This document shows positions 27,830-62,792 of a DNA stretch of 64,000 nucleotides, piece by piece. Location: assembly GCF_000151315.2 (NCBI RefSeq), contig NW_011887294.1, forward strand, positions 1,632,460 through 1,696,459. The letters are read 5' to 3'. Within the stretch, counting starts at the first letter, position 1. Each line of letters opens with the position of its first letter. The position numbers and the translations under genes were made by a program. The notes under the pieces were generated by a model. That model searched no databases. It had not been told where the DNA came from and was given only the letters and a program-made list of their open reading frames with translations. Source of the stretch: Capsaspora owczarzaki ATCC 30864 (Eukaryota > Opisthokonta > Filasterea).

Positions 27830-28751
27830 TCAGGACTTTCGAACAACCCGATGGCAAGCGCCGCCGCCATTCTTGGCAAAGTAGTGCTGATGGTAGTCCT
27901 CCGCGGGATAAAAGACATCAGCGGCGGTGACTTCAGTGCTGATTGGCTTGGACCATTGCTTCTGCTCGGCTTCGCGCGAGGCCAAGGCAGCGTCCTTCTG
28001 CGCGTTGTCGACGTAAAAGATTGCCGAGCGGTATTGCGTTCCGTGGTCGGGACCCTGACGATTGAGTGTGGTGGGATCGTGATGGTCCCAAAAGACCTTG
28101 AGCAGCGCATCGTAGCTATATATTTGCAGATCATCAAAGAGTAAGTCTCAGAAAGTTGACAAAAACAGACAATGCCAGTGAAAACGACACACAAAGCATA
28201 ACACGCTGCTCACCACCATCGCCCCCTTTTTTTTATTGCTTTTCTCCACAAGCTCATCATCGCATCCCAATCTCACATCACAGGTTGGGCAATGACGATG
28301 ACCGGAAATTTTATGGCATGGTTGCGAACAATTCGCCGTTTCGGTGCGCGCAGACAACCAATAATTCTGGTGCCATTTCGTCCAGTCCAACCACTACCAA
28401 CCACTACTACTACGACAGCAAAATAGCTACGCAGCTCACAACGCGTTTTGTGACTGAAAGGGGCCCTCCTCCTCCTCCTCCTCACCTGACGCGGGCGGGA
28501 TCAAAGACAATCTTGACGGCCTCGGCGTGACCCGTCTCGTTGTAGCAGACCTGCTTGTAGGTCGGGTTTTGCGTCTTGCCGTTCATGTAGCCGACCGCCG
28601 TGTCGACCACGCCGGGTGTCTCGGCAAACAGCTGCTGAACGCCCCAGAAGCAGCCGGCAGCGACATACGCGGTCTGGGCGGTGGGTGGGATGGCGGACAT
28701 GGTTGGAATCGATGCTGAAGATGAAAAGTACGATCGAAGCACCTGTAGCAT
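27830..28751 (-). CDS. MSRA: Peptide methionine-S-sulfoxide reductase MsrA
   Basis: Reduces Met-S-sulfoxide in proteins using a catalytic Cys recycled by thioredoxin. Exons on the minus strand are 28751-28486 and 28115-27830 (183 aa from the upstream Met, 166 aa from the internal Met at 28700). It has AAGCFWGVQQLF with the nucleophilic Cys, then GYMNGKTQNPTYKQVCYNETGHAEAV, VFWDHHDP, DHGTQYRSAIF and the C-terminal HYFAKNGGGACH, whose Cys is a candidate resolving residue. The upstream start adds MLQVLRSYFSSSASIPT, basic and Ser-rich without acidic residues, as in mitochondrial presequences. Two in-frame starts could therefore give mitochondrial and cytosolic forms. The gene is divergent from the aconitase-like gene. 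Confidence 0.93.
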
Positions 28752-29315
28752 GTAAGAGTGAAGGAAAAGACTGAGACAGGCACCTTACACCATTCCAATT
28801 CATAGAATAGTAGTACCAACAAATATCGCATATGGAGATAGCTGAATGAAATAATACTAGGAATGCCAGTTAGTTCAGTCTTCACTCCGAGTGGTCAAAA
28901 CATGGACACCTCGCTTTGGCGAACTCACCACCCGTACCAGTCGATCATCCGGCAGCTCCACACTGGCGATGAGGTCTGCCGCGTCTTTGATCTTGCATCG
29001 CTCGATGAAGCGGCCTACGGTACGCAAAAACATCAACCGAAAGTCGCACGGAGCGTCTCAGACTGTAGCTGTCAAACCCTGATTTGTCAGCTTGCTGCTG
29101 TTTTGTTTCCGCTCTGCGTGTTCTGCTGATACTCTGTTGCAATTGACTGTTTTGATTGAGCACGGATCGAATGTTACTCTCTCCGATCACTATGATGACT
29201 GACTTGCTATTGTTCCGCTTTGCCGGTTTGCTGCTCTCTCTTCTTGGCTTGGCTTGCCGCGTATCTCAATTGTTCCCACACACACACACAACTCAACCTA
29301 GACCGACTGCCAATC
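28752..29315. other. Divergent intergenic region with a short minus-strand ORF
   Basis: 564 bp between the MsrA and aconitase-like starts. It carries the 52-codon ORF at 28875-29033 listed separately and a short CA repeat before 29293. No other element was recognised. Confidence 0.5.
28875..29033 (-). CDS. Possible 52-aa small protein
   Basis: A complete ATG-to-stop frame encoding 52 residues beginning MFLRTVGRFIERCKIKDAAD and containing LIASVELPDDRLVRVV. The composition is balanced and protein-like, with an amphipathic N-terminal helix. I cannot assign a family. It lies just upstream of MsrA on the same strand and could be a small gene, an upstream exon or an uORF-like element. A GT donor-like site (gtgagt) lies within its codons near position 28927. 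Low confidence because of short length. Confidence 0.3.
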   Translation of the reverse strand: MFLRTVGRFIERCKIKDAADLIASVELPDDRLVRVVSSPKRGVHVLTTRSED

Positions 29316-32300
29316 ATGCTGCGAATCGTGCTGGAATCGCTCGTCCGGCACTGCGACGGGCGGCTGGTCACCAAGGACGACGTCGAGCGCGTCTTGTATG
29401 CAGCCAGCACAAAACCACCACCAGAGCGAGAGACCGCAACAGCCACCCCGAGTGCATCCACGCATCACACGCAGTCGAGTATGGTTGCCACGCACGGCGG
29501 CGCAACGACCAAGGCAGCAGCAGCAGCAACAGCAGCAGCGACAGCAGCGGAGGCGGCTGCAGCGGCGGCGAATTCAGTCCACGCGGGTTTGTCGGAGCTT
29601 GTGGCAGACCACCACCACCACCACCAGCCACGCGCGGTAGTCGCCAGCGCTGCGCACGGTGCCAACTCGACACTGTCGGTCGTTTGGGAGGGCTCGGAGG
29701 GCTCGCCGGCAATGGCGGGCGGCGATGGCGTGGTGAGCATGCCGCGTCCACTTGTCTCAGAACTGGTCATCCCGTTTCTACCAGGGCGAATATACATGCA
29801 GGATCAAGCAGCCATGCCCGTGCTGATTGATATTGCTGCAATGCGCGATGCCATTGCCCGGCACGGCGGCGATCCGCGGTCGTTGAATCCGATTGTGCCG
29901 GTTGATGTGGTTGTCGCCGAGCAACAAGCTGCGCAGCCGGGCGGTCTTGGTACCGACGATGCTGCCGCTGTCGCCACATCCTTGGCCGGAACAACTGTTT
30001 CAGTCGGCAAAGCATCCTCCGGGAAGGCTCCGACGGAAGATATTGAAGCGTACGTTGAGTTTTTTTTTTTTTTTTTTGGCACCCTTCGATTTGGCTGACA
30101 TTTGACTTGCCCATTTGACTCATGGAATGGCATGCTCATTTGTGTTTTTTTTGTTGCTGGATTGCTTGTTTTGTGTGTATGTGTGTCTTGCTTTGTGGAC
30201 ATGGATAGCGCCGTGACACCCAACATTTCAAAAGGTGCGGCGATTCTTGCCGAGTTTGACCGGAACACGGAGCGCTACCGTTTTCTCAAGTGGGCTGCAG
30301 GGAATATGCAGTACCTACGAGTTGTCCCACCCGGCACGGGCTTGCTGTTGAACAGCATTGTGCTGAGCCTCTCGCGCTCAATGCTCGTCCTGGGCCCGGA
30401 CAATCGCGAGCTGCCCGAGTCACTCGTTATTCACCCCCGAGCCAAGCCGAGCCTCGCGTCCCTGCCACCCACAGCAACGCCATCAAGTCCAGTTCGTGGT
30501 TCGAGACGATCTTTGGTGGCGCCGACCGTTACTCCTACTCCCGGGAGCAGTAATAACGTGTCTGATCGCTCGCAGAGTGCGCCTCGCATTCAGCACGTCG
30601 CCAGAGATGGCGGCTTTCTCGTGATGGATACTGTTGGCACGTCTGATTCGCATGCTGCCCTCAGCAATGGTGCTGGTATTTTGACGGTTGCGGCCAACTG
30701 CGTCGATCTGGCCGCAATGGTGCTCGGTCAGCCCGCGGCACTACGGCTGCCCTCCATTGTCGGCTTTCGCATTTCTGGCACCGTTCCTACAATTGCCACC
30801 TCCACCGATGTGGTGCTGGCCATCATCAAGTCGCTCCGCGAGCACACCCTGGATGGTGCCTGCGTTGAATTCTTTGGCCCGTCCGTGTGCTCTCTGTCGA
30901 TTGCCGACCGCTCCACCATTTCCAACATGGCGCACGAGTACAATGCCCAAATCGCCTACTTCCCGCCAGACGACGAGCTTGAACGGTACATTACGCAAGC
31001 AGGCAAATCCGATGCGTTCGCCCCCAAATTCCGCCAGTATCTGTCTGTTTTACGATTGAGCAACGGAGGCTCTGGCAGCACGCTTGGCGACGCTCGCAGT
31101 TACTGCAGGGTCATTCCGTTTGATCTTTCCAGTGTCCTTCCGTCGTGCACCGGTCCGCGAAACATGAGTGCTCGTGTTGGCGTCTTCCATCTCAAGGATG
31201 ATTTTCATCAGGTGAGTGTTGTCGTTGGCTATGCAGATCATGTTGCTCGAGTAGTCTTCTTCCAGCCTTCCCCCGTTTGACAATGGTTGCCTGTTTTTTT
31301 AATTGATTTGCGGTGGCAGTGTTTGTCCAACCGAGATGGTTTCCGAGGGTTCAACCTCACCACCGAACAGCAAAAGCAGCATGCCGATGTTGAAATCAAT
31401 GGCGAAATCCACCGGCTCGGTCACGGTGCTGTTGTGATTGCAGGCATCACGAGCTGCACCAACGCTACAAACCCGACTGTCATGCTTGCTGCAGGTATAC
31501 GTTTAATCGAGCCGCTTGCTTGTGACGTCTTGGTTTGTTGTTGTTGTTTGTGTTTGTTGAGCGAGATTTTCACCAACTCCGAGCTGCCGCTTCTTGTGGT
31601 ACCATGTCATTTGGCTTGTAGGATTGCTTGCACGCAAGGCAGTAGAGCACGGCCTGCGAATCAAACCTTATGTGAAGACGATGCTTTCACCCGGCTCCGG
31701 CTTGGTGACTTACTATTTGAATGAGAGCGGCGTCACGCCTTACTTTGAGCGACTCGGGTATGAATGTGCTCTTCGGGGGGAAGGGGTTGTGGGCACGCCA
31801 TCGTCGCTCGTTTCCTTTTACTCAATCACGAGTCATGTTGAAATCAGATTCCCAATCACCGGTTACGGCTGCATGACATGTGTCGGAAATGGCGGCGCTT
31901 TGCACGATTCCATCGAGAGCGCCATCCAAAAGAACGATCTCGTCGTCTGTGGCGTGCTGTCAGGCAACCGCAATGTCGAGGGTCGAATCCACCCTCTCAC
32001 AAAGGCCAACTATTTGGCTTCCCCGCCACTGGTTGTTGCCTATGCCATCGCTGGCACGATCGACATTGATCTTGAGCGCACTCCGCTTGGAACGTCGATT
32101 CTTACGGGACATCCCGTGTACCTCCGCGACATTTGGCCCTCCCGCGATGAATTGCAGCAGATTGAGCGTGCGCAAGTCCTTCCTGGCATTGTTGGCGATG
32201 CCGTACGGCGGCTTCAGGTAGGCATTTGGTTGGTCGTGTGTGATGTCGTTGATCCAATCTTTTTTCTATTTTTTTTTCTTTTTTTTTTCTGGGCTCGACG

Positions 32301-33881
32301 CTTATTCGCACTTCAATGCGCCCCACAGGCCGGCCACCATCAATGGGAGCAACTACCATTGATTCGCTCGCCTCTTTACTCTTGGGACCCGCAGTCAACA
32401 CAAATTACTCGACCACCCATGTTCGATGCCATGGTAATGCCGAGCTTGTATTCCGCATGCTCTTGGCGCATCATCCTGCCTTTTTTGACTCACTGAGCTG
32501 CACTCTATTCTCATGCAACAGGAGGAGCCAGCATGGGAATGGCAGGACCTTCAGCATGTTGATATTCTCGTAAAGGCGGGTGATGCAGTATCAGTCGACA
32601 TGATCTCTCCATCCGGTCACATTGCAAAGGCCAGTGGAGCTGCCCAATTCTTAACTAGTCGAGGGTGAGTTGTTGGATGTGGTTGGCAGTGATGTTTGTT
32701 TTTGCTTGTTCGGTTTTTTTTCTGAACTTCCTCCCCTCGCTTTCTTTTTCGGTTTGTCAGCCTCGCGCCTCGTGAATTTGCTTCGTTTGGTGCCCGTCGT
32801 GGCTGTCATGAGCTCATGATGCGGGGCACCTATTGCGGACTCAAGTTCCGCAACGTGTTGCTCGAGAACGTTGTGGCTGGACTTCGCAGCATCGATGCAG
32901 TGTCATCGTCTGCGACCGTCCCTGCCGGCAGCGTTTCTGTGGGAACACCTCATGTTAACAAGGCGATCGGAAATTGGCTCGCACGGATGCCCGACGCACA
33001 CGCACGCGCTGCGTTCATGGCGCAGCTACAAGCAGCGATAGCTGCGCCTGCTCAGCAAGGGTGCAAAACCATACACACACCATCCTTGACCGTTCTTGAC
33101 ATTTGCGATGCTTCTGCACGATACAAGAGCGACAAGATCTCTCGATTGCAGCAAATTCTGAACAAGCGTGCTGCCGCGGCGGGAATTAACGTGGCTGACA
33201 TTGCGAGCTCCTTGCTGACTTCCTTGCCACAGGCTGCTGTGACTCCAGTGTTGGCAGTTGTCGCTGGCAAGGACTATGGCGGGGGAGCTCCGCGCGAGTG
33301 GGCGGCTCGCGGCCCCTGGTCGGTTGGCATTCGCTGCATTCTCGCCGAATCCTTTGATGACGACCATCGTCGCCACCTTGCGCAGATGGGCATTCTTCCT
33401 CTCCTGTTGCCTTCCAGTGCGCTGACTGAAGAAAGCCGCGGTCAGCTGGCTGCCTCTCTGTCGTTTAGCGTTCGTTTGGTTCAACGTGGGGAGGACTGCC
33501 AGCACTGCCATTCCTCGGCAGGTCTACCGAGTCCTTCAAGTACACCCAGCCCTCTGACTGGGCGAACCGGGAAGCCCATATTGCCGCCGCGTGCGAAATT
33601 CCATGTTCAGGTGAGACTTGGCCGTTGTTTTTTTCAAAAGGGTTTTTTCCGCTTTGGTGTTTTTGGAATGGAGTGTTTGTGACATCTATGGGTGCTGACC
33701 ATGTTTTTTTTTTTTTCGCTGTACTTGCGTTTTTCGTCGAATCAACGAACAGTTTGATACTGGCTTGGTTTTGCACTGCTCAAGCGCGCTGTACACTATT
33801 GCAGATGTTGCCTACTATTGCCACGGTGGCTTGCCGCGCCTTGTTCTGTACACGCATCTCAACCCAGCCAAGCTTTGGTGA
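29316..33881 (+). CDS. Diverged IRP1/aconitase-like protein, probable pseudo-enzyme
   Basis: Nine exons fit by phase: 29316-30049, 30209-31211, 31320-31494, 31622-31757, 31848-32217, 32329-32433, 32522-32664, 32761-33610 and 33753-33881 (about 1214 aa; animal IRP1 is about 890). Collinear with IRP1/cytosolic aconitase: [103 protein letters not shown] and [14 protein letters not shown]. The three Fe-S cysteines and the GNR..GR, ARRG and PREW arginines are kept. IRP1 catalytic sites are not: the Asp-His of VIDHS is Ala-Glu, the His of SGIIHQVN is Leu, and SSRDW is APREW. Extra length comes from low-complexity inserts. It may sense Fe-S or bind a ligand or RNA rather than isomerise citrate. Confidence 0.85.
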
Positions 33882-43547: not shown

Positions 43548-46500
43548 ATGGATCCGCTGTTGGTTGGACCGGCGCTGGTTGACTTTCTCGCGTCCACGGC
43601 GCCTGCGTTGCTGCAAGTCCATGCCGAGGTGCCGCGGCGACCAGAGCACGACGTCCGCCTCGATGCTCTCACTCAACAACAACAGCAACAACAACAGCAA
43701 CAGCAGCAACAACAACAGCAGCAGACGCGGCCGAGCGCACGACAGCTGGAGCGAGCAGCAGCGCGGCCAAAGCTCAAGACGGCGCTGCCAACCGCAGTCC
43801 AGAGCTACACCGAGTGCATTGCTGCGATTCGCCGGCAGCAGCAGCAGCACAGACGCGTTGACAAGCACGCCCAGCGACCGCCATCAGCCGCAGGAGGTGC
43901 AACGCGAGGAGGAGGAGCAGCAGCAACGCAAAGTGCACTGCCCTCGGTTTCAGCAGCGCGTTCTTCCACAGCCACCGGTGCTGGTGCTGCTGGTGCTGCG
44001 GCTGCTCGTGCTGCTGCTGCTGCTGCCTCGTCAGACATGGCCACGGATGGTGCAGCCACGACGGCAAACACCCCCGCACACGCATTGCTGCGGACGCTGC
44101 TGGCTGCGCATCGCCGAATGCAGCAGCAGGAAACCGATGACGCCCGTCAAACGGGTGCCTCCGCTGCCTCGTCCTCAACCCCAACGCCCATGGCTGCAAC
44201 TGCTGCAACAACTGCTGCTACGGATGCAGGCACCCGAGCTGGAGGCCGAGCGGGCGCTTCGAGTGCGCGTCATGCCTCGAGGACGGCTGCGACAGCGACG
44301 ACGACGAGGACGACGGCTTCTACCGCTGCGAATGTGGATGACGACGATCGTCAGGATGGCTCCAACGATGAGCAAGCCATGGTCGCAATGCATGTTTCAG
44401 GTCATCACGATGACAATGATGATGATGAAGAGGACGACGACGACGATGACGACGACGAGGACTTGTACTACGACTCGGAGGATTTGCCGACGCACTTGGG
44501 GCATGGCGCCTCCCTTGTTGCGGGTGATGATCGTGACGATGACGATGATGATGATGATGATGATGATGACGAGAACGACGAGGAGGAGGACAATGGCGAT
44601 TACCCCTGGCTCAACGAAGACGACGACGATGACGATGACGCCTTTGACGAAGAAGACAACGACGAAGACAACGACGAAGACAACGACGAGAACGAGAACG
44701 AGCACGGGCTGGAGGCGTTTGATGCCAACGCCGATGAAACCCTCAACGACGACAATGACATGGACGCCGACATTGACGACGACAACGACGAAGACAACGT
44801 CCTGCTCGCCCAACTCGCTCAGCAACTCGCTCAAATGGCACCAGCCGAGCTACCCGACTACCGCGAGTGGTCTGTGGCGGAAATCATGTCCTTCATGCAC
44901 CAAACCCGACTTCGGCGTCGGCTGCGCTTGCGTCGGCTGCGCCGCCGTCGCGCGCTGGCTCGCCGACAGCAGGAACAAACTCTCCGCCAGACCGGCCTGG
45001 AGGACTACAACCAAGTCAACCACACAGAGCAACTGGATGCTGCCATTATTGCCACCGCTGTCGCGGCGGGCAGCATCAGTCCGCAGACGGGCAGCATTAT
45101 GGTGAAGGCCATGCCCGTCACTCTCTGCACGCCTGCCCTCGCCAAGTGCTTTGGGACGGTCTGGGAAGGGTTGATGCAGATTGTCCTCGGCCCAGATAGC
45201 GGACAAGTTTTGGAGCAAATCGGCAAGTCCAACCCCAAGCCCACGTCCTGTGGCCATGTGTTTGTCAAGGGCGAGACCACGTATCACTGCCGGTAAGGAA
45301 AAGGGAGGCGGGACGCAAAGGTTGCAAAACGAACGCCAGAAAGGGGAGAAGCACGAGCAGCCTTGAGTTGTCATGTTTTGGAGCTGGGGCAAAGCTGATT
45401 TTTGATTTTGCATATTCACTGCGGGAAATGCTTGTTCTCCCTTGTACGTTAGCGACTGCGGGAACGATGCGACGTGCGTGCTTTGCACAGACTGCTTCCG
45501 AAATGGCCCGCATGTCAACCACAACTATCGCATGTCATCGTCGCATGGCGGCGGTTGCTGTGATTGCGGCGAGATCGAGGCGTGGAAGTGCCTTCCGAGC
45601 TGCGCGACCCATTTGAAGGCGCAGGAAGAAGCGAGCAAGCTTGCCAGCCCCATTTCTTCCATTCCAGCACAAGTCGCTGCAACAGCCTCGTCCGCCTTCC
45701 CGGCGCTGCTTCGCTTCATTCTGGACGTTCTTTTGCTGTCGCATTCGGGCGGCGTGGAGAGTGACTCGCGTCTCCCTCTGGACCGCGTCCGTAGCGCAGT
45801 CTCTCTCGCCCAAAGCGAGGTTGCGCTCAAAGCCGCTTGTTTTGTTCGAGACTCTGCGGAAGCTCCATCTTGGGCGAACGTGGACGAGTTTGACAATCCC
45901 GAGCTGTTTGTTGTCGTGCTGTACAATGACGAAAAGCACTCATTCGACCAAGTCATCAACCAGCTGAAGCGCGGCGTGGGCATGTCGCCTTCCGACGCCA
46001 AGCATACCGCGATGGTTGTTCATGCTGAGGTAACATCACATCATTGTGTGACAAGCGGTCGTGGCTGCTTTCAAGAGAGGAAGTGTGAGTTGATGCTAAC
46101 TTTTGTTGTGTGTTGTTATTGTTGTTGTTGCTGTTGTTTTGTTCAGGGTCGCGCTATCGTGTGCTCTGGTACCGAGGATGAATGTATGGAGGCTCGTCGC
46201 CGTCTTCAGCGAACTGATTCATCCAACACGGAGCCACTCTACGTTGGAGTGCATCCTGCCATTCTGATTCATTTGCAGTACCTGGCACTTGTCGCGCTAC
46301 GCTTCTTGATTGAGCTTAGTTCGGTAGGTTTTTGTGTTCATTTTGAGCCCAGCTACTGGGTTGCTGCTTTTTTTGTTGTTGTTGTTGTTGTTGTTGTTGT
46401 TCTTGTTTCACGTCGTGATTGACTCGTACCCTTTGTATTTTTCTCACACAGAGCCACGCCGGCTTCCAGCACCTCATTTGCGCCGCCCTGGTCAACCCCA

Positions 46501-49500
46501 TGGATTACCATGACGTACTGGATAAAGACGAGATTGGCGAAGGCTCGCCGGTAGACCTCATTTTCCGCGCAGACACTCGGCTGTGGAAGCACGTGCGCAC
46601 GGCACTGCACGATCTCCTGATGGCGACAATGCTTCGGGACCAGGTGTTCAAGGGCCAGTTTGGCGTCATCATGTGCCGGAACTACGCCTATTGCCAGTGG
46701 CAGTTCTTGGAGGACTCGCACGCGCTGTCCGACTCCATCATGTCTGTTTCGGTGCAGATCTTCACCGTCCCATCCATTGTGTGCATGCTGGTGGAGCAGC
46801 ACAATCTCTTGGGCAATCTGCTCACCGTCCTCAACGCAACCTTCCGGACGGCGCTCGTGCCCAACACGATGATTGATCGAGGTTTGAACGATCAGCTCGT
46901 GGGTGGGCTCACGATGGATTGTCTGAGCAACTTGATTCGCTCGCGTCGATACTTTCACATTCTGCTCGACCTCCGCTATGTTGCGCGGCACCTGTTTCCC
47001 GTCCCGGATGTTCGCGCTGATTTGGGCAGCTTTTTGCAGTTCCTGGGCATGATGCACGAGATGGATTCGATTGCTCGCGAACGGGTGGAACACGTCCTTC
47101 ACGAAACAGACTCTTGGACGCATGCGCTCACGCTGTACCTGTACATCATGTCGATCATTCCGTCGCTGTCGACCATCTTTTCGCCGACGCCGGGCGATTT
47201 CCAGATTTGCTGCGACGCGACCGTCGATGCCATCTTGCAGAGCGGAGAACGGCGACTGCTTGCACTGCATCCCGTGGTCTTCTCGACCAGCCTGGGCACG
47301 ACCGCCGCGCTCGATTACGATGTTTCGCTGCGACCGGTTTCGCTGCACATTCCGCTGCACCGTTTCCTCGCCGGACTGATTGCAGAGGCTGCAGCCAAGC
47401 ACATCAACCTTGCCACAGTCATGTCGCGCGCAAACCGTGGATTTTTGCTCCATGTGATGGAGCATCCTTTGCGGCTCATGATTCTGCTGGCTCAGTCGCG
47501 CCCCAATCTCTGGGTTCGCAACGGTGCCTCTTTAATCAATCAGCTCTACAACTACTCGGGCATGATGTTCCGCGAACACACGCTTGAACGCGATTTGATG
47601 CTCATTCAGGCCGTCGCGGCTCAGACGCTTGCTGGTGACGACGACTCCAATGTCAGAGCGATGCAGACCGAGACAAGTCAGCCTGCCAGCTCCACCGTTG
47701 ACAGCCGTGCCACGAGCTTTTTGCTGATGCTGATGCGTCGCTTTGCCGTGGACAATTGGTTTGAGGCCGATCCCACCGCCGTCCCACCGCCAGCTGTCTC
47801 GGCCGCCGTGGAAGCCCAGGCTCACTCTGATCGACGCGTGCAAACCGTGCTTGTGGAAGAGTTCCTTCACTTTGTGATTGCCCTCTTGACGGAGCGTTGG
47901 AAGCTCGGCGTCGGCCAAGTCACCATCACGGACGTGATTCAGCGCCACATTGTGCACCGACTCTACTTGTCATCGGCCCCGCACAGCGAGTTGGCCTCCT
48001 CCATCTCAAAGTACATTGTCGAGCATGCAGAGTTTGACTCTGTTCTGCGGCAAGTGGCCACGTTTAAACAGCCCGAGCGCGTCGCCGACTCTGGCGTCTA
48101 CGAGTTGCGGGAGCAGTACGCTGTTCAGTTCGACCCGTTTTTTTTCGCTTACGGCCGACGCGACGGAGATCTGGCTGCAGACAATCGCCGAATGCGGCTC
48201 CGGCGCACCGCCGCTGCCCTCAGTCCCCCTGGAGGCGCTGTTGTGGCTCCCGAGGACGTTGCGTTCATGGCTTCGCCCGCACCACCACCCTTCACCTCGA
48301 CTTTTGCGGCGCTCAACAACCTGCCGCTGTCGAAGGCCTACTATCACATGATTGTACGGCCTCTGCGTCGCGCAATGACCGGGAACAGTGAAATGTTTTC
48401 GGACATGGTCGTTCAACAAGCTCTCCGCTTGTTGGTGATTGGCATTCAACTGCAAGGAGAGGCTGCTGCTGCTGCTGCTGCACCTGCCGCGCCGACAACT
48501 CCGGTTCGTCCGACTGGCCCTCGAGGCCAGGCCGCGGCACGTGGCAGCGCTTCGTCTGCTTCCTCCACGGCGCTCCCTCCGGGCCATGTCGCGACTGAGG
48601 TGCCTGTCACTGCAAATGAATTTGTTCGGGTCATGTGCGCCTTGGATTTGGAGCTCGGCTCTGGCTGGCAGGGTCTGTTCCCCACACTGCTCGCGCTGCG
48701 TCTCCAAGACCACCTCAAGGCTTTCAAATCCTGCATCACTTGGGTGTTGAAGAGCTTTTACTCGTGCCCCTCTGCTTCCGAGCGTGTCAAGTCCATGCTG
48801 GCTCCCTTGTTTGCGGCTGCCAGCGGCACTGGAACCGGTGCGAGTGCCGGCAACAGCGAGGCGCCTGCCGACGCCGATGCACAGACGGAGCGTGCCCGTA
48901 AAGCTGCCATTGCCAAGCAAGCACGTGAAAAGGCGTTGGCCCAAGTATCCTTGATGCAACGCCAGTTCAAGGACAAGCACATGGACCTGTACCACGAAGC
49001 GTCCGGAGAATCATCGCCTGCACTCAGTCGCAGCCCTTCAGTCTCCAACACGCCTGGCATTCCCAACCGCTCAGGGGCGAGCTCCCCGGCGCTGAGCCTT
49101 TCGATCGCGTCTGCCACCACTCAGCCGGGCTCGCCCTTTGGCACGGCGGCTGCTGCTGCTGTCGGCTCGGACGCTTCACCCATGTCGACTGCGCTGGGCA
49201 ACAGTCTCTCTTCTGACATGCTGCACGTGAGCACGAGCCTGCGGTCGGTTGCGTCGGCTGCGGTCGATGACATGCCTCAGTTCCAGGACTTGGCCACCGC
49301 GCTGTGCATTTTGTGCCAGGAGGAATCTGTGATTTCCAACGACAGCGCCAATCCGATGGGACTGGTGGCCTGCACGCAAACGTCCAGCGTGCTGGCCTCC
49401 TTGAATGCCCGTGGTGACTGGACTGCCCAGTACCGACAAGCGCATGATGCGCAATACCAGAACGAAAGCGCAGCCGTCCTTCGCCAGGCAAGCAAGCTGT

Positions 49501-52500
49501 ATGGCGCTGCCATTCCCGCGCTTTCTCAACCCCAGCCAGCGAATGGAGGGGCATCGACCCCGACGGCGCGCAATCTCTTCCGTAGCTTGTCGCATGCATC
49601 CAGTCCCAGCGTGAACGCCCCGGCTGTCGTCTATCCTGGAACGCCCCCACCAGCTACTCCGCCCACTGCGCCCGTGCGCCCCAACAACAACAACGCGCCT
49701 CCGACCGGACTCACGAGTGCACCCTCATGGGAGGACGGCTTGCACCACGAATTTTACGAGCGGCTTCAGCTCTCTCGTGCAGGCAACCGTGCAAAGGCGC
49801 TCTCGGACACGCGAGACTTGGACCCGACCTCTCGCGAGGCAGTTGACTTGGGAGGTGCTGCTCGAACGCTCTTCCGACAGCTCGACGGCGACCGCGGCAT
49901 CCACGTATCCAGCTGTGGACATGCCATGCACATTGAGTGTTGGACGCGCTACACGGCCGGTCTTCGCTCCCAGCCCTACCACGCTCGCCGGCCTCAAATT
50001 GAAAACCTCGATCTCGAAGAGTATCTCTGCCCCCTGTGCAAGACTCTTGGAAACACCCTGCTTCCACTGGTGTCTGTGGGCCAGCTCTGCGCGCCGCCCA
50101 TGCTGTGGTCACCCAACGCTGGCAGCCAAGCCGCGAGCGATGACGGTTCGAGTGACTACCGCGGTGCGTTTGCAAGCCAAGGCTTTGCTGGCAGCGAGAT
50201 CGACAGTGAAGGCCACGTTGATTCAAACGATGCTCATCAGGAGGGGGACGACACTCAGCCACTGCAGCAATCCCGCAAAATCCTGCCCGCAACTGGGCGT
50301 GCCTTGGGGCGCACGAGGGCATCCACTTCGCTCTCGTTCGACTACGACCATTCGTCGTCGTCCGATGTGGATGAGGACGGCGAGGATGTTGTGCCAGGAC
50401 GCGCCGCAAACCGACCGGAGGTTCGCCTCAGCAGCAGCCCAGGCAGTCTTGGCGCGGGCTCTGGGCCCCGCTTTTCATCTCGAACCTCTGCTGTCGGCAG
50501 CGGCGGCATGCTTGGCGATGCAATGACTGCCAGCGCTCACGCCAACGCGCAAGATTCGCAAGTCGCACGGTCTGACGCCTTGTTCCTGCAATGGCTCACT
50601 GCTGTTGCCGAGTCGGCTGTTGCCGCTCCGCTTGCTGGCCCGTCGTACAAAGAGATTGATGTGGCGCCGGTGAACAACCCGCCCACTAGCTTCCACGACA
50701 TGCTCGATCTACTGAATCCGGTTGAGCGAGCACCGTTTGCACCAATGTCTGGTGCGCCTCCTCGGCTTGAGACCGTTGTGAGTGGTGGTGGTGCTGGTGG
50801 TGGTGGGGACATGGGCGATTTTGGCTCTGCTCCAGAGAACTACCCCCGCCCGCGCTCGTTTACCGAGTTCCTCTCGCGCAACATTCGTTATGGGCTCATC
50901 CCAATGTTGCAAAACATGTCTCGGGGCGCGTTTGAAACTCTCAACCGTTCGCGTGGACGCCGGCAAGTCGATGCCGTTCTGGGCGCCAACGCCGACGGTC
51001 GTGAGACGAGCAGCAACGAAGCCAAGGACTTTGGAGCGGCCCAAGAAACGCAGCGCCGCTTGGTCGATCGGCTGCAATACCAACAAATGCAGATCAACGA
51101 CATGTTGCGCCGAGCTCTGCTTGCCCTTCCGTGGCGTGTGTACTCGATGGATGCGCACCGAAGCGGCGACATCCATGCGGCGTCCATTGCGCCCCCTTTG
51201 GCCGGAGCCTCATCCACAGATCTCAAAGTGAGCGCCACCACCTGGTCGAGTTGCGCATACACGATCGCCAGCGCCGAGGTGGCCGCGCGTCTCACGCCAA
51301 ATCCCCAGGGCAAGTTTGTGGTCGAGCTGATCAGTGAGCGACAGCTCCACTTCCTTCGGTCGTTAACGGCTGCAGTCGTGGCACACAGCCAGCTGCGCAC
51401 GGAACGCCCTGTTGCATTGTCCCAGTTCTTTTTGCTCAGCCTGCTTGGCACTGCAGACAATCCCCAGTCGCCTGCAGCGTTCGTCCTGTCAGCCTCTGCT
51501 TCCGGCTCTTCGCCCTTCATTGTCAATTCCAACAGCAGTAGCAGCAGCAGTAGCAACAGCGTTGGCAGCGGCAGCAGCAGCAGCAGCAGCAGTGGCGATG
51601 GTGCTGCTGTTGGGCTGGGAGGCAAATCGCTGCCGGATGGTCCCGCCGCTTCCACATTGCTCTCCCAGCAACCGTTTGCCTCGCTCTTGAGCCCGTTGCA
51701 TTTGCCGCTGCTCATGGATCCGTTCAACGCGCTTGTTGCCTCGCAGTTCCTTCTTGCGCCACACCTCTCGTCGGCTGTCGGCTCTGTCAAGCGCCTGCAT
51801 TACATGGTGCGCTTGCTATACGTTCTTGCCTTGACGCAAGCGTTGCTTGCTGTAGTTGCCGCGCGTATGAGTGTTGGCAAGGCTCGTGCCGCGTCGACCA
51901 ACTTTTGGGACGAGGAGCAGCGTGCCCTGGTTCAGGAATTGCTTGCAGAAGAGGCAGCAGCAGCAGCAGCTTCCAAGCAGGTTGTTGGCGGCAAACCGCC
52001 CCGTAGTGACGATGATATTATCGGGAACACTCGCGGAGCTGAAGAGGAGCGAGATGACGACGAGGACGAAGAAGATTTTGATGATGATGACGACGATGAT
52101 GACGATGACGACGACGACGACGACGACAGCCAATCAGCCGATCGCGACGCTCTGGTGCAGTTCTTCCGTTCCATTCTTTCGTGGCTGAACGTTCGCAAGC
52201 TGGATCAGTACAGCAACGTGATCGATGCCCCTCGGTTCCAACGTCGCTTGGCTGCCTTTGTGAACGACGTCACGCTGCCGTTCTTGCGACGCGCTGCCAT
52301 CTTCTCCTTTGCCATTTGCAATGGAGGAGACTTGACTACCGCACCCCCTGCCAGCGGCACCCCAGCCCGCCGCCTTGCACCGTGGGCGCAGCAGCCCGAT
52401 GCCAGCGACGAGACATTGCGTCTCCAGCAATACCTTTCGCTGCCCTCGTACCATCGCCTCTTGGCCCAGGGAAGCTCGGTGCCAGTCGTCCAGGAGCTGG

Positions 52501-53240
52501 CGCGCTTCTGGGTGGTCGCGACTGCCGACCAAGTCAAGGCGCGTGCGCTCGCCCGCGTCTCAGTTGCGTCGTCGCCCTTGGCTCCGAGCCGCTCGCGGCA
52601 CGGACAACCCGGCACGCCCTCGGTTGCCATGGCTGATCCCGTGGCCATGTCTTCGTCGCCGCCCTTGCTGTCCTACATGGCGCTGCCGTTTGTCGGATCG
52701 GGTGCTGGCAGCGAGCTCAGCGCCGAGCGCTTTTTGCACGATCTCGCCAAACTCGTGCCTGTGCCACGCCCCATTCGCAGGCAGGCGCTTGTTCCGCTGC
52801 CCGAGAACTACAACGACCTGTTCCACGAGGCTGTGCGAGTGACGTGCAGCGCGTGCGGACAGATTCCAAACAACCCCGCGTTGTGCCTGGTCTGCGGCAA
52901 ATACCTGTGTTCCCAGGCCCAGTGTTGCATGACTGGTCAATCGCCCGTCGGTGAGTGCGCTGCACATGCCGTCTCGTGCGGCGCGGGCAGCGGCATTTTC
53001 CTCCACATTCGTCGGTGTGTCATTGTCCTCCTTCACGCCACGCTCGGCACCTTTGTCAACACGCCGTACCTGGACGCGCACGGTGAAACGGACGTCGGTT
53101 TGCGGCGTGGCCATCCCCTCAAGCTCAATCGCCAGCGCTACGAGCAGCTCAACAAGATTTGGGTCTCGCACCATGCCTGGTCTGAGACTGTGCGATCGTT
53201 TGACGCCAACCCCAATGCGGTTGATTGGGTTGCGTTTTAA
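43548..53240 (+). CDS. UBR1/UBR2-type N-recognin E3 ubiquitin ligase, giant form
   Basis: Recognises N-degrons (basic and bulky N-termini) and ubiquitylates them with a Rad6-type E2. Exons are 43548-45292, 45453-46029, 46147-46323 and 46452-53240 (about 3095 aa; human UBR1 1749). An N-terminal part of about 430 residues has poly-Gln and long Asp/Glu runs. The UBR box follows: GHVFVKGETTYHCRDC, CVLCTDCF, CDCGEIEAW. A ClpS-like type-2 domain reads FVVVLYNDEKHSFDQVINQL. The RING starts CILCQEE, has a long insertion, and resumes at SCGHAMHIECW and YLCPLCKTLGN. The C-terminal UBLC/cap domain has CLVCGKYLCSQ, GIFLHIRRC, ETDVGLRRGHPL and ends NAVDWVAF. Large disordered and poly-Asp inserts explain the extra length. 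Confidence 0.95.
43675..43723. repeat. Poly-Gln (CAA/CAG) coding repeat
   Basis: About 16 consecutive Gln codons, mixed CAA/CAG, near the UBR protein N-terminus. Confidence 0.9.
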
Positions 53241-59214: not shown

Positions 59215-62200
59215 ATGTTCGTCAAGAAGCGTGGTACGTTTTTTTCTTCCTTCCTGCCTTCCTGCCTTCTTGCTGTGCGCAACAACTCTTCTGTGCATGG
59301 TTTTCTCTTCATCTTTGTGACTATCGCAATCCCCTTGGAGCGGATCTGTCCATGAGCAACGGGTGATGATCCGCTTTTTAAATTTTTGGCGCCCATTTTC
59401 CCGCGTAAAATTTTCCCGCGTTTTTTTTCTCCGGTTGTTTCTTTCACCCATCTGCCCTTCAGTTACCTCGCCGACATCGGCAAACACTTGAAACATGTTG
59501 CCAACAGTGTGGATGACACATGGGCTTTGTAGCATCGCGCAAACCGAGTGCTGAGTGAGGCTTTGGCGTTTTCATTTCTTTGGCGCCAAAGTTCGCGCGC
59601 TTTTTTTTATTTCATTCAACCACCGCGGTTTGCACGCGTTTTTCAGCATCTTCCTGCTGCGCTTCTGCCATCGCTCCGCTCTGCATACCATCCTTGTATA
59701 TTTTTGTTCAAACCAACAGCAATGAACGGGGATGAAATGGCTTGATTGTCGCGGAATGGGCGTGAAACGAAAATTTTGGCGCGATGCTTAAAAAATTTTG
59801 GCGGGAACCTTGGCGCGCTTTTTTTTCTTTTTTTTTTTTTTTTTCTGTTTGAATTCTGTCTTGTCTGCTTTGTCTTGGCTGAATTAAACGTCTCACCTCG
59901 CTTCCTCTGCCTCCCTTGCCCCTGCCTCTGCTCCTGCTCCTCTTTACAGATGGCCGCACCGAGAAGGTCATGTTCGACAAGATCACCTCGCGTGTCAACA
60001 AGCTCTGCTACGGCTTGAACTCGGACTATGTTGACGCTGTTGAAATCACACAAAAGGTCAGTCACCCAACGCAAACCGGGCCCCTCGCCTCACGTCCAGC
60101 CCCACCAGCCCACCAGCCGTGAACGGTGAATCAGTGACAGTACTGGGATTGCTGGGGGAATGGGATGCTGACCCCCGGCGCCGAGACTGACGCCATAACG
60201 TTCGCACGTGTGCCGTTTGGTTCTTGGCGGTCTCATCACTGTCACAAGCGCTCCAACGCCGTGGCGGTGCAGCCCAGCCTCGATTTCTGCAACATGGAAT
60301 GACCTACATGGCCTTGCTAGTCGATTGGGTGTGGCTTGAGGGTGGATGGGCGCTCGTGGCGCGAGCAGTGTCGTGTCGGCGTTTGCACGTCCTTTCTTGC
60401 GCTTCAACGTCAACGTCAACGTCTCTCCGACCTCTCAACGTCCTGTCCTGAAAAGAAAAAAAATCATGTTCTTGTGTCGACAACATCCTCCCTTTTTTTT
60501 TTTTTTTTTTTTTGCTCACTTGCCTGAAATTCTCCATCACGGTGTCTACCCCGGCGTGACCACCGTCGAGCTGTCTACCCCGGCGTGACCACCGTCGAGC
60601 TCGACACGTTGGCTGCCGAGACGGCCGCGTACCTCACGACCAAGCACCCCGACTATGCCATTCTGGCTGCACGCATTGCCGTGTCCAACCTGCACAAGGA
60701 GACCAAGAAGCAGTTTTCGAGCGTGATGCGCGACCTGTACGAGTACCAAAACCCCAAGACTGGCAAGCCCGCCCCGCTGCTCGCCGACGACGTGTACGAG
60801 ATCATCCAGCGCAACGCCGACATTCTGGACTCTGCCGTCATCTACGATCGCGACTTTAGCTACTCGTACTTTGGCTTCAAGACCCTCGAGCGCTCGTACC
60901 TGCTCAAGCTCCACGGCAAGATTGCCGAGCGTCCCCAGCACATGCTCATGCGCGTGGCTGTGGGCATTCACAAGGAGAACATTGATCTCGTGCTCGAGAC
61001 GTACAACCTCATGTCTGAAAAGTGGTTTACGCACGCCTCGCCCACGCTGTTCAACTCTGGCACGCCCCACCCGCAGCTGTCGTCGTGCTTCCTCCTCACC
61101 ATGAAGGACGACTCGATCGAGGGCATCTACGAGACGCTCAAGACCTGCGCCATGATCTCGAAGACGGCCGGCGGCATTGGCCTCAACGTGCACTGCATTC
61201 GCGCGTCTGGCAGCTACATTGCCGGCACGAACGGCCACTCGAACGGCCTGGTGCCCATGCTCCGCGTGTTCAACACGACTGCACGCTATGTGGACCAGGG
61301 TGGCAACCGCCGCCCCGGTGCCTTTGCCATGTACCTCGAGCCGTGGCATGCCGACGTGTTTGACTTTTTGGAGCTCAAGAAGAACACTGGCAAGGAGGAG
61401 CAGCGCGCCCGCGACCTCTTCTTTGCGCTGTGGATTCCCGATCTCTTTATGAAGCGCGTCGAAGCCGACGGCAACTGGTCGCTCATGTGCCCCCACGAGT
61501 GCCCCGGCCTGGAGGAGACGTACGGCGACAAGTTTGAGGAGCTGTACACCCGCTACGAGCGCGAGGGCAAGGCCCGCAAGGTCATCAAGGCCCAGAAGCT
61601 GTGGTTTGCCATCCTCGAGTCCCAGACGGAGAGCGGCACGCCGTACATGCTGTACAAGGACGCCTGCAACATCAAGTCAAACCAAAAGAACCTCGGCACG
61701 ATCAAGTGCTCCAACCTTTGCACGGAGATTGTCGAGTACAGCTCGCCCGACGAAGTTGCTGTCTGCAACCTTGCCTCGCTGTCGCTGCCCATGTTTGTCC
61801 GCTCAGACCGCACGTACGACTTTAAGAAGCTGCACGAGATCACCCAAGTCGTCACCAAGAACCTCAACCGCATCATTGACATTAACTACTACCCCGTGCC
61901 CGAGGCCGAAAAGTCGAACATGCGCCACCGCCCGATTGGTCTGGGCGTTCAAGGCCTGGCCGACGCCTTTATCCAGATGCGCGTTCCTTTCGACAGCGAG
62001 GATGCCAAGAAGCTCAACCGCGAGATTTTCGAGACCATCTACCACGCCGCCCTCACGGCCTCGGTCGAGATGGCCAAGAAGAGCGGTCCCTACGAGACGT
62101 ACGCCGGCTCTCCGGTCAGCCAGGGCATTCTGCAGCACGACATGTGGGGTGTCAAGGAGACGAGCGGCCTGTGGGACTGGGACGCGCTGCGCGCCCAAAT

Positions 62201-62792
62201 TGCCCAGCATGGCATTCGCAACAGTCTGCTTGTTGCTCCCATGCCCACAGCCTCCACTGCTCAGATTCTCGGCAACAACGAGTCGATCGAGCCCTACACT
62301 AGCAACATTTACACGCGCCGCGTGCTCTCTGGCGAGTTCCAGATTGTCAACCAGCACCTGCTGCACGATCTCATGGAGCTTGGTCTGTGGAACGACCGCA
62401 TGAAGAACAAGATTATCTCTCAGGGCGGCTCGATTGCCGGCATTGAGGAAATCCCCGCCCACATTCGCGCCCTGTACAAGACTGTGTGGGAGCTGTCCCA
62501 AAAGACGCTCATTGACATGGCTGCCGACCGTGGCGCCTACATTGACCAAAGCCAATCGTTCAACGTGCACATTGCCGAGCCCAACTTTGGCAAGCTCACT
62601 TCGATGCACTTTTACGCATGGAAGCGCGGCCTCAAGACCGGCATGTACTACTTGCGTACTCGGCCTGCTGCTAACGCCATCCAGTTTACTGTCGATCAAA
62701 AGGCCCTCGCCGCACCACAAAAAGTGGACGAGGAGGCAGCCATGGTCTGCTCTCTGCAGAACAAGGAGGCTTGCCTGATGTGCAGTGGTTAA
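59215..62792 (+). CDS. RRM1: Ribonucleoside-diphosphate reductase large subunit
   Basis: Class I ribonucleotide reductase alpha chain, which makes dNTPs. Exon 1 (59215-59233, MFVKKR) and exon 2 (59950-60056, [22 protein letters not shown]) join in phase; the last exon runs to 62792. Landmarks: [112 protein letters not shown] and the C-terminal redox pair CLMCSG. All active-site Cys/Asn/Glu motifs are present. At the start of the last exon a perfect 29-bp tandem duplication (60543-60571 and 60572-60600) breaks the frame and leaves its acceptor unclear. Intron 1 holds a cluster of E2F-type sites. Confidence 0.93.
59380..59820. promoter_or_regulatory. Cluster of E2F-type sites in RRM1 intron 1
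   Basis: At least six matches to the E2F core lie within 440 bp: TTTTTGGCGCCC near 59384, TTTTCCCGCG at 59396-59405 and 59411-59420, TTTGGCGCCAAA at 59579-59590, TTTTGGCGCG at 59774-59783 and TTTTGGCGGGAA at 59796-59807. RRM1 is a classical E2F/MBF target in animals and fungi. Confidence 0.7.
60543..60600 (+). repeat. Perfect 29-bp tandem duplication in RRM1
   Basis: The unit beginning tgtctaccccggcgtgacc occurs twice without mismatch. The second copy reads [10 protein letters not shown] in the RRM1 frame; the first copy, read on, is out of frame by 29 bp. Confidence 0.97.

Follow-up and report, generated by a model that had tools for sequence, protein, structure and literature searches.

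The gene and its exons

We analyzed a 64,000-nucleotide stretch of the genome of Capsaspora owczarzaki ATCC 30864 (contig NW_011887294.1, positions 1,632,460 to 1,696,459; hereafter the window), which lies on contig C3 of the 29-contig, 27,456,641-base genome and contains a gene for an aconitase-family protein of the AcnA/IRP1 type. The corrected gene model occupies positions 28902-33881 of the window on the forward strand and consists of ten exons encoding 1258 amino acids, with no internal stop codon. All nine introns are of the GT-AG type and measure 88-282 bases. The encoded protein has lost catalytic residues of aconitase and kept the three cysteines of the iron-sulfur (Fe-S) cluster. In the following list positions are those of the window, and residues are numbered along the 1258-residue protein unless another numbering is named.

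28902..29019, +, exon 1: ATG at 28902, donor GTACGC, joined in frame to 29302 (acceptor CCTAG); N-terminus; missed in the preliminary description
29302..30049, +, exon 2: beginning of domain 1, interrupted by two inserts (residues 73-167 and 173-190); Q206 retained; A245 E246 Q247 Q248 (29916-29927) where the Asp-His pair is lost
30209..31211, +, exon 3: remainder of domain 1, and domain 2; Leu336 (30348-30350) at the His147-equivalent; Asp-Ser-His 435-437, N528 and E532 kept; KRPQD loop altered
31320..31494, +, exon 4: cluster cysteine C669 at 31455-31457
31622..31757, +, exon 5: domain 3
31848..32217, +, exon 6: cluster cysteines C735 and C738 (31870-31881); arginines R768 and R773
32329..32433, +, exon 7: linker
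32522..32664, +, exon 8: D911 and S914 kept; H912 changed to Met; His918 at the N685-equivalent
32761..33610, +, exon 9: the larger part of domain 4 (swivel), containing three inserts (968-1028, 1061-1096 and 1194-1207); R945, R946 and R1111 kept; A1109 P1110 (33287-33292) at the Ser-Ser pair
33753..33881, +, exon 10: C-terminus and stop

The preliminary description, made from the letters of the window, had placed the start of the gene at 29316. We rejected this start because homology extends upstream of it and an exon with a donor site and the right frame is present there (28902-29019, joined in frame to 29302); the true start thus lies 414 bases upstream, at 28902. Residues across the join of exons 1 and 2 align with the AcnA consensus GLSRLPFSIKVLLEN.

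In the spliced coding sequence each of the five remaining frames contains 22-36 stops, and about 25 would be expected in the gene's own frame if codon positions were independent. GC content is 0.635/0.505/0.602 at the three codon positions, compared to 0.447 in the introns. A synonymous codon score, for which three long frames of the window served as training set, came to +0.105 bits per codon for the whole gene, whereas synonymous recoding by intron base composition gave -0.44 on average. The stop-free frame, together with the coding-like GC content and codon score, therefore identifies the locus as a gene with weak codon bias. Intron 5 (31758-31847) has 90 bases, a multiple of three, and is stop-free; if it were retained, 30 more residues would directly precede the cluster loop GYGCMTC.

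Family placement and active-site residues

The protein belongs to the aconitase superfamily, with Pfam matches over cut-off to PF00330 (Aconitase, 334.2 bits) and PF00694 (Aconitase_C, 62.5 bits), and within it is nearer AcnA/IRP1 than mitochondrial aconitase, LeuC or homoaconitase. The top relatives of solved structure in a phmmer search were IRP1 (3sn2, E = 1.9e-196; 2b3x, E = 1.4e-195) and IRP2 (6vcd, E = 3.7e-186), with mitochondrial aconitase far behind (1c96, E = 3.7e-28). Identity is 45% to IRP1 and 46% to IRP2 over about 540 residues. Among the NCBIfam models AcnA ranks first, yet the TIGR01341 score of 718 bits falls below the equivalog cut-off of 945 and does not classify the protein as a functional AcnA; the subfamily cut-off of NF006757 (686) was passed with 703.9 bits.

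For comparison 84 loci were assembled, 80 from genomes and four from viral contigs. The genomic loci are the best 80 of at least 588 relatives and were chosen by pattern, so that "invariant" below is valid for this sample. A first scan of viral contigs had yielded four AcnA relatives out of 41 matches; a further one, run with 386 residues of the protein, returned four pattern matches and no relative. Loci with no frame carrying the search motif (L031, L048, L072, L095) or with a frame outside 850-1100 residues (L020, L058, L067, L069, L079, L084) were dropped, which left 74 AcnA rows, 71 from prokaryotic genomes and three from viral contigs. In a tree of 77 rows (these 74, IRP1, IRP2 and the Capsaspora protein) the AcnA rows formed one group (support 100/98, branch 0.67). 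The Capsaspora protein and IRP1/IRP2 fell outside it, with IRP1/IRP2 as the nearest rows, a placement that is unsure for so long a row of deviant letter composition, next to just two other eukaryotic rows (IRP1 and IRP2). The branch leading to the protein measured 3.06, versus 0.27 for IRP1 and 0.67 for IRP2.

All active-site changes quoted in the preliminary description were recovered in the DNA, spread over three exons (2, 3, and 9). The catalytic Asp-His pair is lost in both available alignments, as MAFFT sets Q247 Q248 against it and a match by eye sets A245 E246. The histidine of GIIHQVN has become Leu336, and the serines of SSRDW have become A1109 P1110. The residues described as retained are also in place, namely the cluster cysteines C669, C735, and C738, and the arginines R768 and R773 (GNRNVEGR), R945 and R946 (ARRG), and R1111 (PREW). 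Further losses comprise H912 (TTDHIS to SVDMIS), T672, S673, the GWGVGGIEAE segment, and the R, P, and D of the KRPQD loop; the cluster loop SCTN is kept.

We examined 21 active-site residues against the 74 AcnA rows. The mitochondrial aconitase (mAcn) numbering, the set of 21 residues, and the IRP1 domain boundaries used here are in part provisional. Sixteen residues are kept (Q72, D165, S166, H167, N258, E262, C358, C421, C424, N446, R447, R452, D568, S571, R580, and R644) and five are lost (D100, H101, H147, S642, and S643). Of the features of a catalytic aconitase, the general-base serine, the Asp-His pair and His147 are thus absent and the three cluster cysteines present. Excerpts of a published study name S642, H101, H147, D165, H167, and the three cysteines as active-site residues of mAcn, with Ser642 as the general base (PMC8184944). 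Since the Ser642-equivalent is lost, isomerization by the known mechanism is very unlikely, and we expect with high confidence that the protein has no aconitase activity.

Conservation is uneven along the protein: of the columns invariant in the AcnA rows it keeps 29/54 in domain 1, 17/25 in domain 2, 43/51 in domain 3, 2/4 in the linker, and 24/37 in domain 4. Domain 3, which contains all cluster cysteines, therefore stands at 43/51 versus 72/120 elsewhere (Fisher p = 0.002, a comparison chosen post hoc). The earlier suggestion of cluster or ligand binding without catalysis holds up in part. The base serine, His101, and His147 are gone, the three cysteines are kept, and the frame is intact. 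From the retained cysteines and the well-preserved domain 3, a bound Fe-S cluster is predicted with moderate confidence. Going by the title of PDB entry 1c96, "S642A:citrate complex of aconitase", citrate can bind without the base.

Relative to the 74 rows the protein carries inserts of 95, 61, 47, 36, 36, 21, 18, and 14 residues in domains 1 and 4. The domain-1 loop between matched anchors has 20 residues in IRP1, 92 in IRP2, and 57 in the Capsaspora protein; two excerpted papers (PMC2854138, PMC2267205) mention an insert specific to IRP2, 73 residues long, in this domain. The insert that the Capsaspora protein has in this loop (residues 268-303) contains no cysteine. Exons 3 and 9 were each folded with 30 homologues of the locus, giving a mean predicted local confidence (pLDDT) of 63.5 for exon 3, with blocks of at least 90 in domain 2, and 61.5 for exon 9. 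IRP1 entries were the first three Foldseek matches for both models (E = 1.3e-14 for exon 3 and 2.1e-05 for exon 9), at low query TM-scores of 0.42 and 0.25, respectively.

RNA binding and genome context

The arginines shared with IRP1 had been put forward as a sign of RNA binding. We rejected them as such, because R269, R536, R541, R712, R713, and R780 (IRP1 numbers, as in the rest of this paragraph) are each present in 74/74 AcnA rows and are thus general aconitase residues. T438, N439, S681, P682, and W782, kept here along with R269, R713, and R780, are likewise invariant in these rows. The picture is mixed at positions where IRP1 differs from ordinary aconitases or makes more specific RNA contacts: R699 is kept, and is R in just 12/74, but S371 is changed to T, K379 to R, N685 to H, and D781 to E, several of these being contacts with the iron-responsive element (IRE). 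The loop holding S371 and K379 reads TGPRNMSA in place of SGPKRPQD. According to the excerpt of PMC4184891, D781 of IRP1 bonds the C8 base of the IRE. IRP1 mutants at R269, S371, K379, and S681 show IRE binding reduced 8- to >100-fold with aconitase activity retained, and N685 is outside the impaired mutants named in the excerpt of that report (PMC4693282). Of the five residues tested by mutation for IRE binding, R269 and S681 are therefore kept and S371, K379, and N685 changed. The change at K379 is tolerable, since R is also found in IRP2 and, by the excerpts, in the earthworm (PMC4184891) and sponge (PMC7034838) proteins.

A check for IRE-like hairpins, proposed earlier, led to none being accepted in the genome, the window, or four gene regions, in searches of limited reach. 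IRE_I had no genome match at E up to 10, with 82/13315 candidates scored and 6/14 prokaryotic controls matched below cut-off. No Rfam match was obtained in the window at gathering score, and with the E limit set to 1 none of the four gene regions contained an IRE; matches at E <1 in L108 (snoR125, mir-2278, Mnt IRES) were dismissed as far under the gathering scores. When this gene, both mitochondrial-type aconitase genes, an Nramp gene, and the window were scanned for the motif, a single weak IRE-like site emerged, at 31317, against a mean of 0.1 matches on that window strand in the control (one single-base shuffle). The site was rejected: it spans an intron-exon boundary, and 4/5 of its upper-stem pairs are G-U by eye. 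IRE-type RNA binding is not supported by these sequence comparisons. In the literature, we found no open-licence paper combining Capsaspora and IRP1; in combination with "iron-responsive element" Capsaspora appears merely in a species list, and a paper pairing it with aconitase concerns, in its excerpt, lost metabolic genes.

Searches for aconitases recovered four family genes in the 27.5-Mb genome, one of the AcnA/IRP1 type, two of the mitochondrial type, and one homoaconitase. The gene at 28902-33881 is the only AcnA/IRP1-type gene found. The other three are:

C6:387394, mitochondrial aconitase (TIGR01340, 1078.6 bits, cut-off 825)
C7:149222-151805, second mitochondrial-type aconitase (L010, C7:147500-152500), three tested pieces of which best match TIGR01340
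C3:1409508, homoaconitase (TIGR00139, 669.7 bits, cut-off 530)

All three keep the Asp-His pair, His147, DSH, the three cysteines, and the base serine, so the separate aconitase asked about earlier does exist; the C7 gene has GEGSAREH for GEGSSREH, its Ser643-equivalent being Ala. Regular expressions missed R447/R452 in L009, where NRNFTAR is present, and N258/E262 in L010, where NMGAEVG is present. Because these genes retain the base serine and the Asp-His pair, aconitase activity is probably covered by them. The C7 gene also has a long low-complexity N-terminal extension.

The ferritin family had 0 genome candidates at E 0.001 in a search that matched 14/14 control genomes, although introns could hide a gene; the same type of search did find a short two-piece NifU_N (IscU) gene. 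Two hemerythrin-domain genes are present, and no F-box or leucine-rich repeats as in FBXL5 were seen by eye in about 3.3 kb around each. A hemerythrin-like domain at C19:93165-93521 (L102) lies in a frame of 618 residues that has numerous hydrophobic segments and may encode a membrane protein.

Other reading frames in the window are:

28482-28718, -, divergent frame with AAGCFWGVQQ, which we take to be the motif of peptide-methionine sulfoxide reductase A; it starts about 200 bases from the start of the aconitase-family gene
45406-53240, +, very long frame of 2273 amino acids with a UBR-box-like Cys/His segment ahead of it, resembling an N-recognin E3 ligase by eye
60528-62792, +, frame resembling the ribonucleotide reductase large subunit by eye

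Interpretation and comparison with known systems

Because catalytic residues are lost and cluster-holding residues kept, the protein may be a sensor or regulator and not an enzyme. Our favored, still tentative, hypothesis is a fast-evolving, IRP2-like, non-enzymatic protein of the AcnA/IRP1 type, serving as a sensor of Fe-S status or of a tricarboxylate. In this intron-rich eukaryote, an aconitase of that type would have given up catalysis and diverged fast, probably still holding an Fe-S cluster in the aconitase fold and residing, as is known for the family, in the cytosol. The trigger could be gain or loss of the cluster (through iron, oxidant, or nitric oxide) and/or a tricarboxylate in the remaining Arg-Gln-Ser pocket. 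Domain 4 would then shift position and alter the interaction with a partner, protein or RNA. A regulatory or sensing role is plausible and weakly indicated. From the earlier proposal of an Fe-S sensor or RNA-binding regulator, the sensor survives on the combination of lost catalysis and kept cysteines, and the argument for RNA binding from the arginines does not.

Several observations weigh against this hypothesis. Erosion is broad, as 56 of the 171 columns invariant in the AcnA rows are changed and 115 kept, and active-site residues are no better kept (16/21) than other invariant columns (99/150, p = 0.46). The excess of losses among proton-transfer residues (4/8, versus 1/13 for binding and cluster residues) reaches p = 0.047 in a comparison made post hoc, and one lost residue, the His147-equivalent, lies near the free iron. 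Codon bias is below that of the three training frames (0.28-0.67 bits), with negative scores in exons 7, 8, and 9 (-0.05, -0.32, and -0.02). IRP2 carries the same three cysteines, and by the excerpt of a review has neither an iron-sulfur cluster nor aconitase activity (PMC4056636); a cluster in the Capsaspora protein is for this reason likely but not certain.

Some of these points would fit a gene in decay with no present function: the branch of 3.06 against 0.27 and 0.67, the 56/171 lost positions, and the weak codon bias, negative in 3/10 exons. Such decay is nevertheless very improbable for a locus with 1258 codons free of stops and frameshifts, intact splice sites, conserved cluster loops, and 45%/46% identity to IRP1/IRP2 over about 540 residues, and by its sequence the locus is very probably not the decaying pseudogene that would have overturned the preliminary description. 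A structural or scaffold protein that has lost cluster binding would account for the eight large inserts (14 to 95 residues) and the erosion of domains 1 and 4 (29/54 and 24/37 columns kept), and IRP2 offers a precedent for cysteines kept without a cluster (PMC4056636, excerpt). The retention of all three cysteines and of the cluster loops, SCTN included, in the best preserved domain makes this rather improbable.

We also considered a different enzyme, a new hydro-lyase using the cluster and another base. The cluster cysteines, Asp-Ser-His, and four substrate arginines are kept, and aconitase X (AcnX), whose altered active site acts on other substrates, illustrates that the chemistry of the superfamily can change; in the alignment, however, there is no evident substitute for Ser642 or His101, and AcnX itself retains a serine base, Ser70 (PMC8184944, excerpt). 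We regard a new hydro-lyase as unlikely. An IRP-like regulator, whose apo-protein would bind mRNA hairpins as IRP1 and IRP2 do with iron acting via the cluster, is less likely still. It would agree with the position of the protein beside IRP1/IRP2 and outside the 74 AcnA rows and with the retention of R269, T438, N439, S681, P682, R713, R780, W782, and R699. Except for R699, though, all of these are invariant in the AcnA rows, while S371, N685, and D781 differ, as does the loop beside K379. The limited searches found no IRE beyond the weak site across a splice boundary, no ferritin candidate, and by eye no F-box or leucine-rich repeats at the two hemerythrin genes.

A broader version of the favored hypothesis, a non-enzymatic sensor, is doubtful: that a non-animal eukaryote, in whose genome neither ferritin nor FBXL5 was detected, has its sole IRP1-type protein given over to Fe-S regulation without enzyme activity, as an "IRP2" of independent origin. 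IRP1 serves as the textbook case of a bifunctional protein, and IRP2 as the known case of an aconitase-fold protein without activity. If the broader version is true, aconitase and regulator parted ways more than once. A further loss of catalysis that arose independently and spared the cluster site would make it possible to ask what the fold senses once freed from enzymology, and whether regulation by cytosolic aconitase is restricted to animals. The protein is a good candidate for such an independent loss, not a demonstration of it.

With bacterial AcnA (TIGR01341, NF006757) the Capsaspora protein shares the hidden Markov model subfamily, but it scores under the TIGR01341 cut-off and its catalytic residues are gone. 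Animal IRP1/cytosolic aconitase (ACO1) is its top sequence match and shares the family over its full length, the cluster cysteines, and the substrate arginines; the Capsaspora protein differs in lacking the general base, the Asp-His pair, and the His147-equivalent, in some altered IRE-contact residues, and in being, through its inserts, some 370 residues longer than IRP1, whose chain has 888. AcnX is, like it, a member of the superfamily with an altered active site, yet the characterized AcnX, as excerpted, has a [2Fe-2S] cluster with other ligands and keeps its serine base (PMC8184944), the reverse of the situation here. The closest parallel is animal IRP2, which shares the aconitase fold, the three cysteines, extra residues in the same domain-1 loop, and 46% identity. 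It is reported in the excerpted review to lack aconitase activity (PMC4056636), as the Capsaspora protein very probably does. IRP2, however, keeps the Asp of the pair (where the match ends) and the histidines of both AHQ and TTDHIS, with NSRDW and GNKNFEGR at the other motifs. The pattern of loss in the Capsaspora protein is different and wider, and we infer an origin independent of IRP2.

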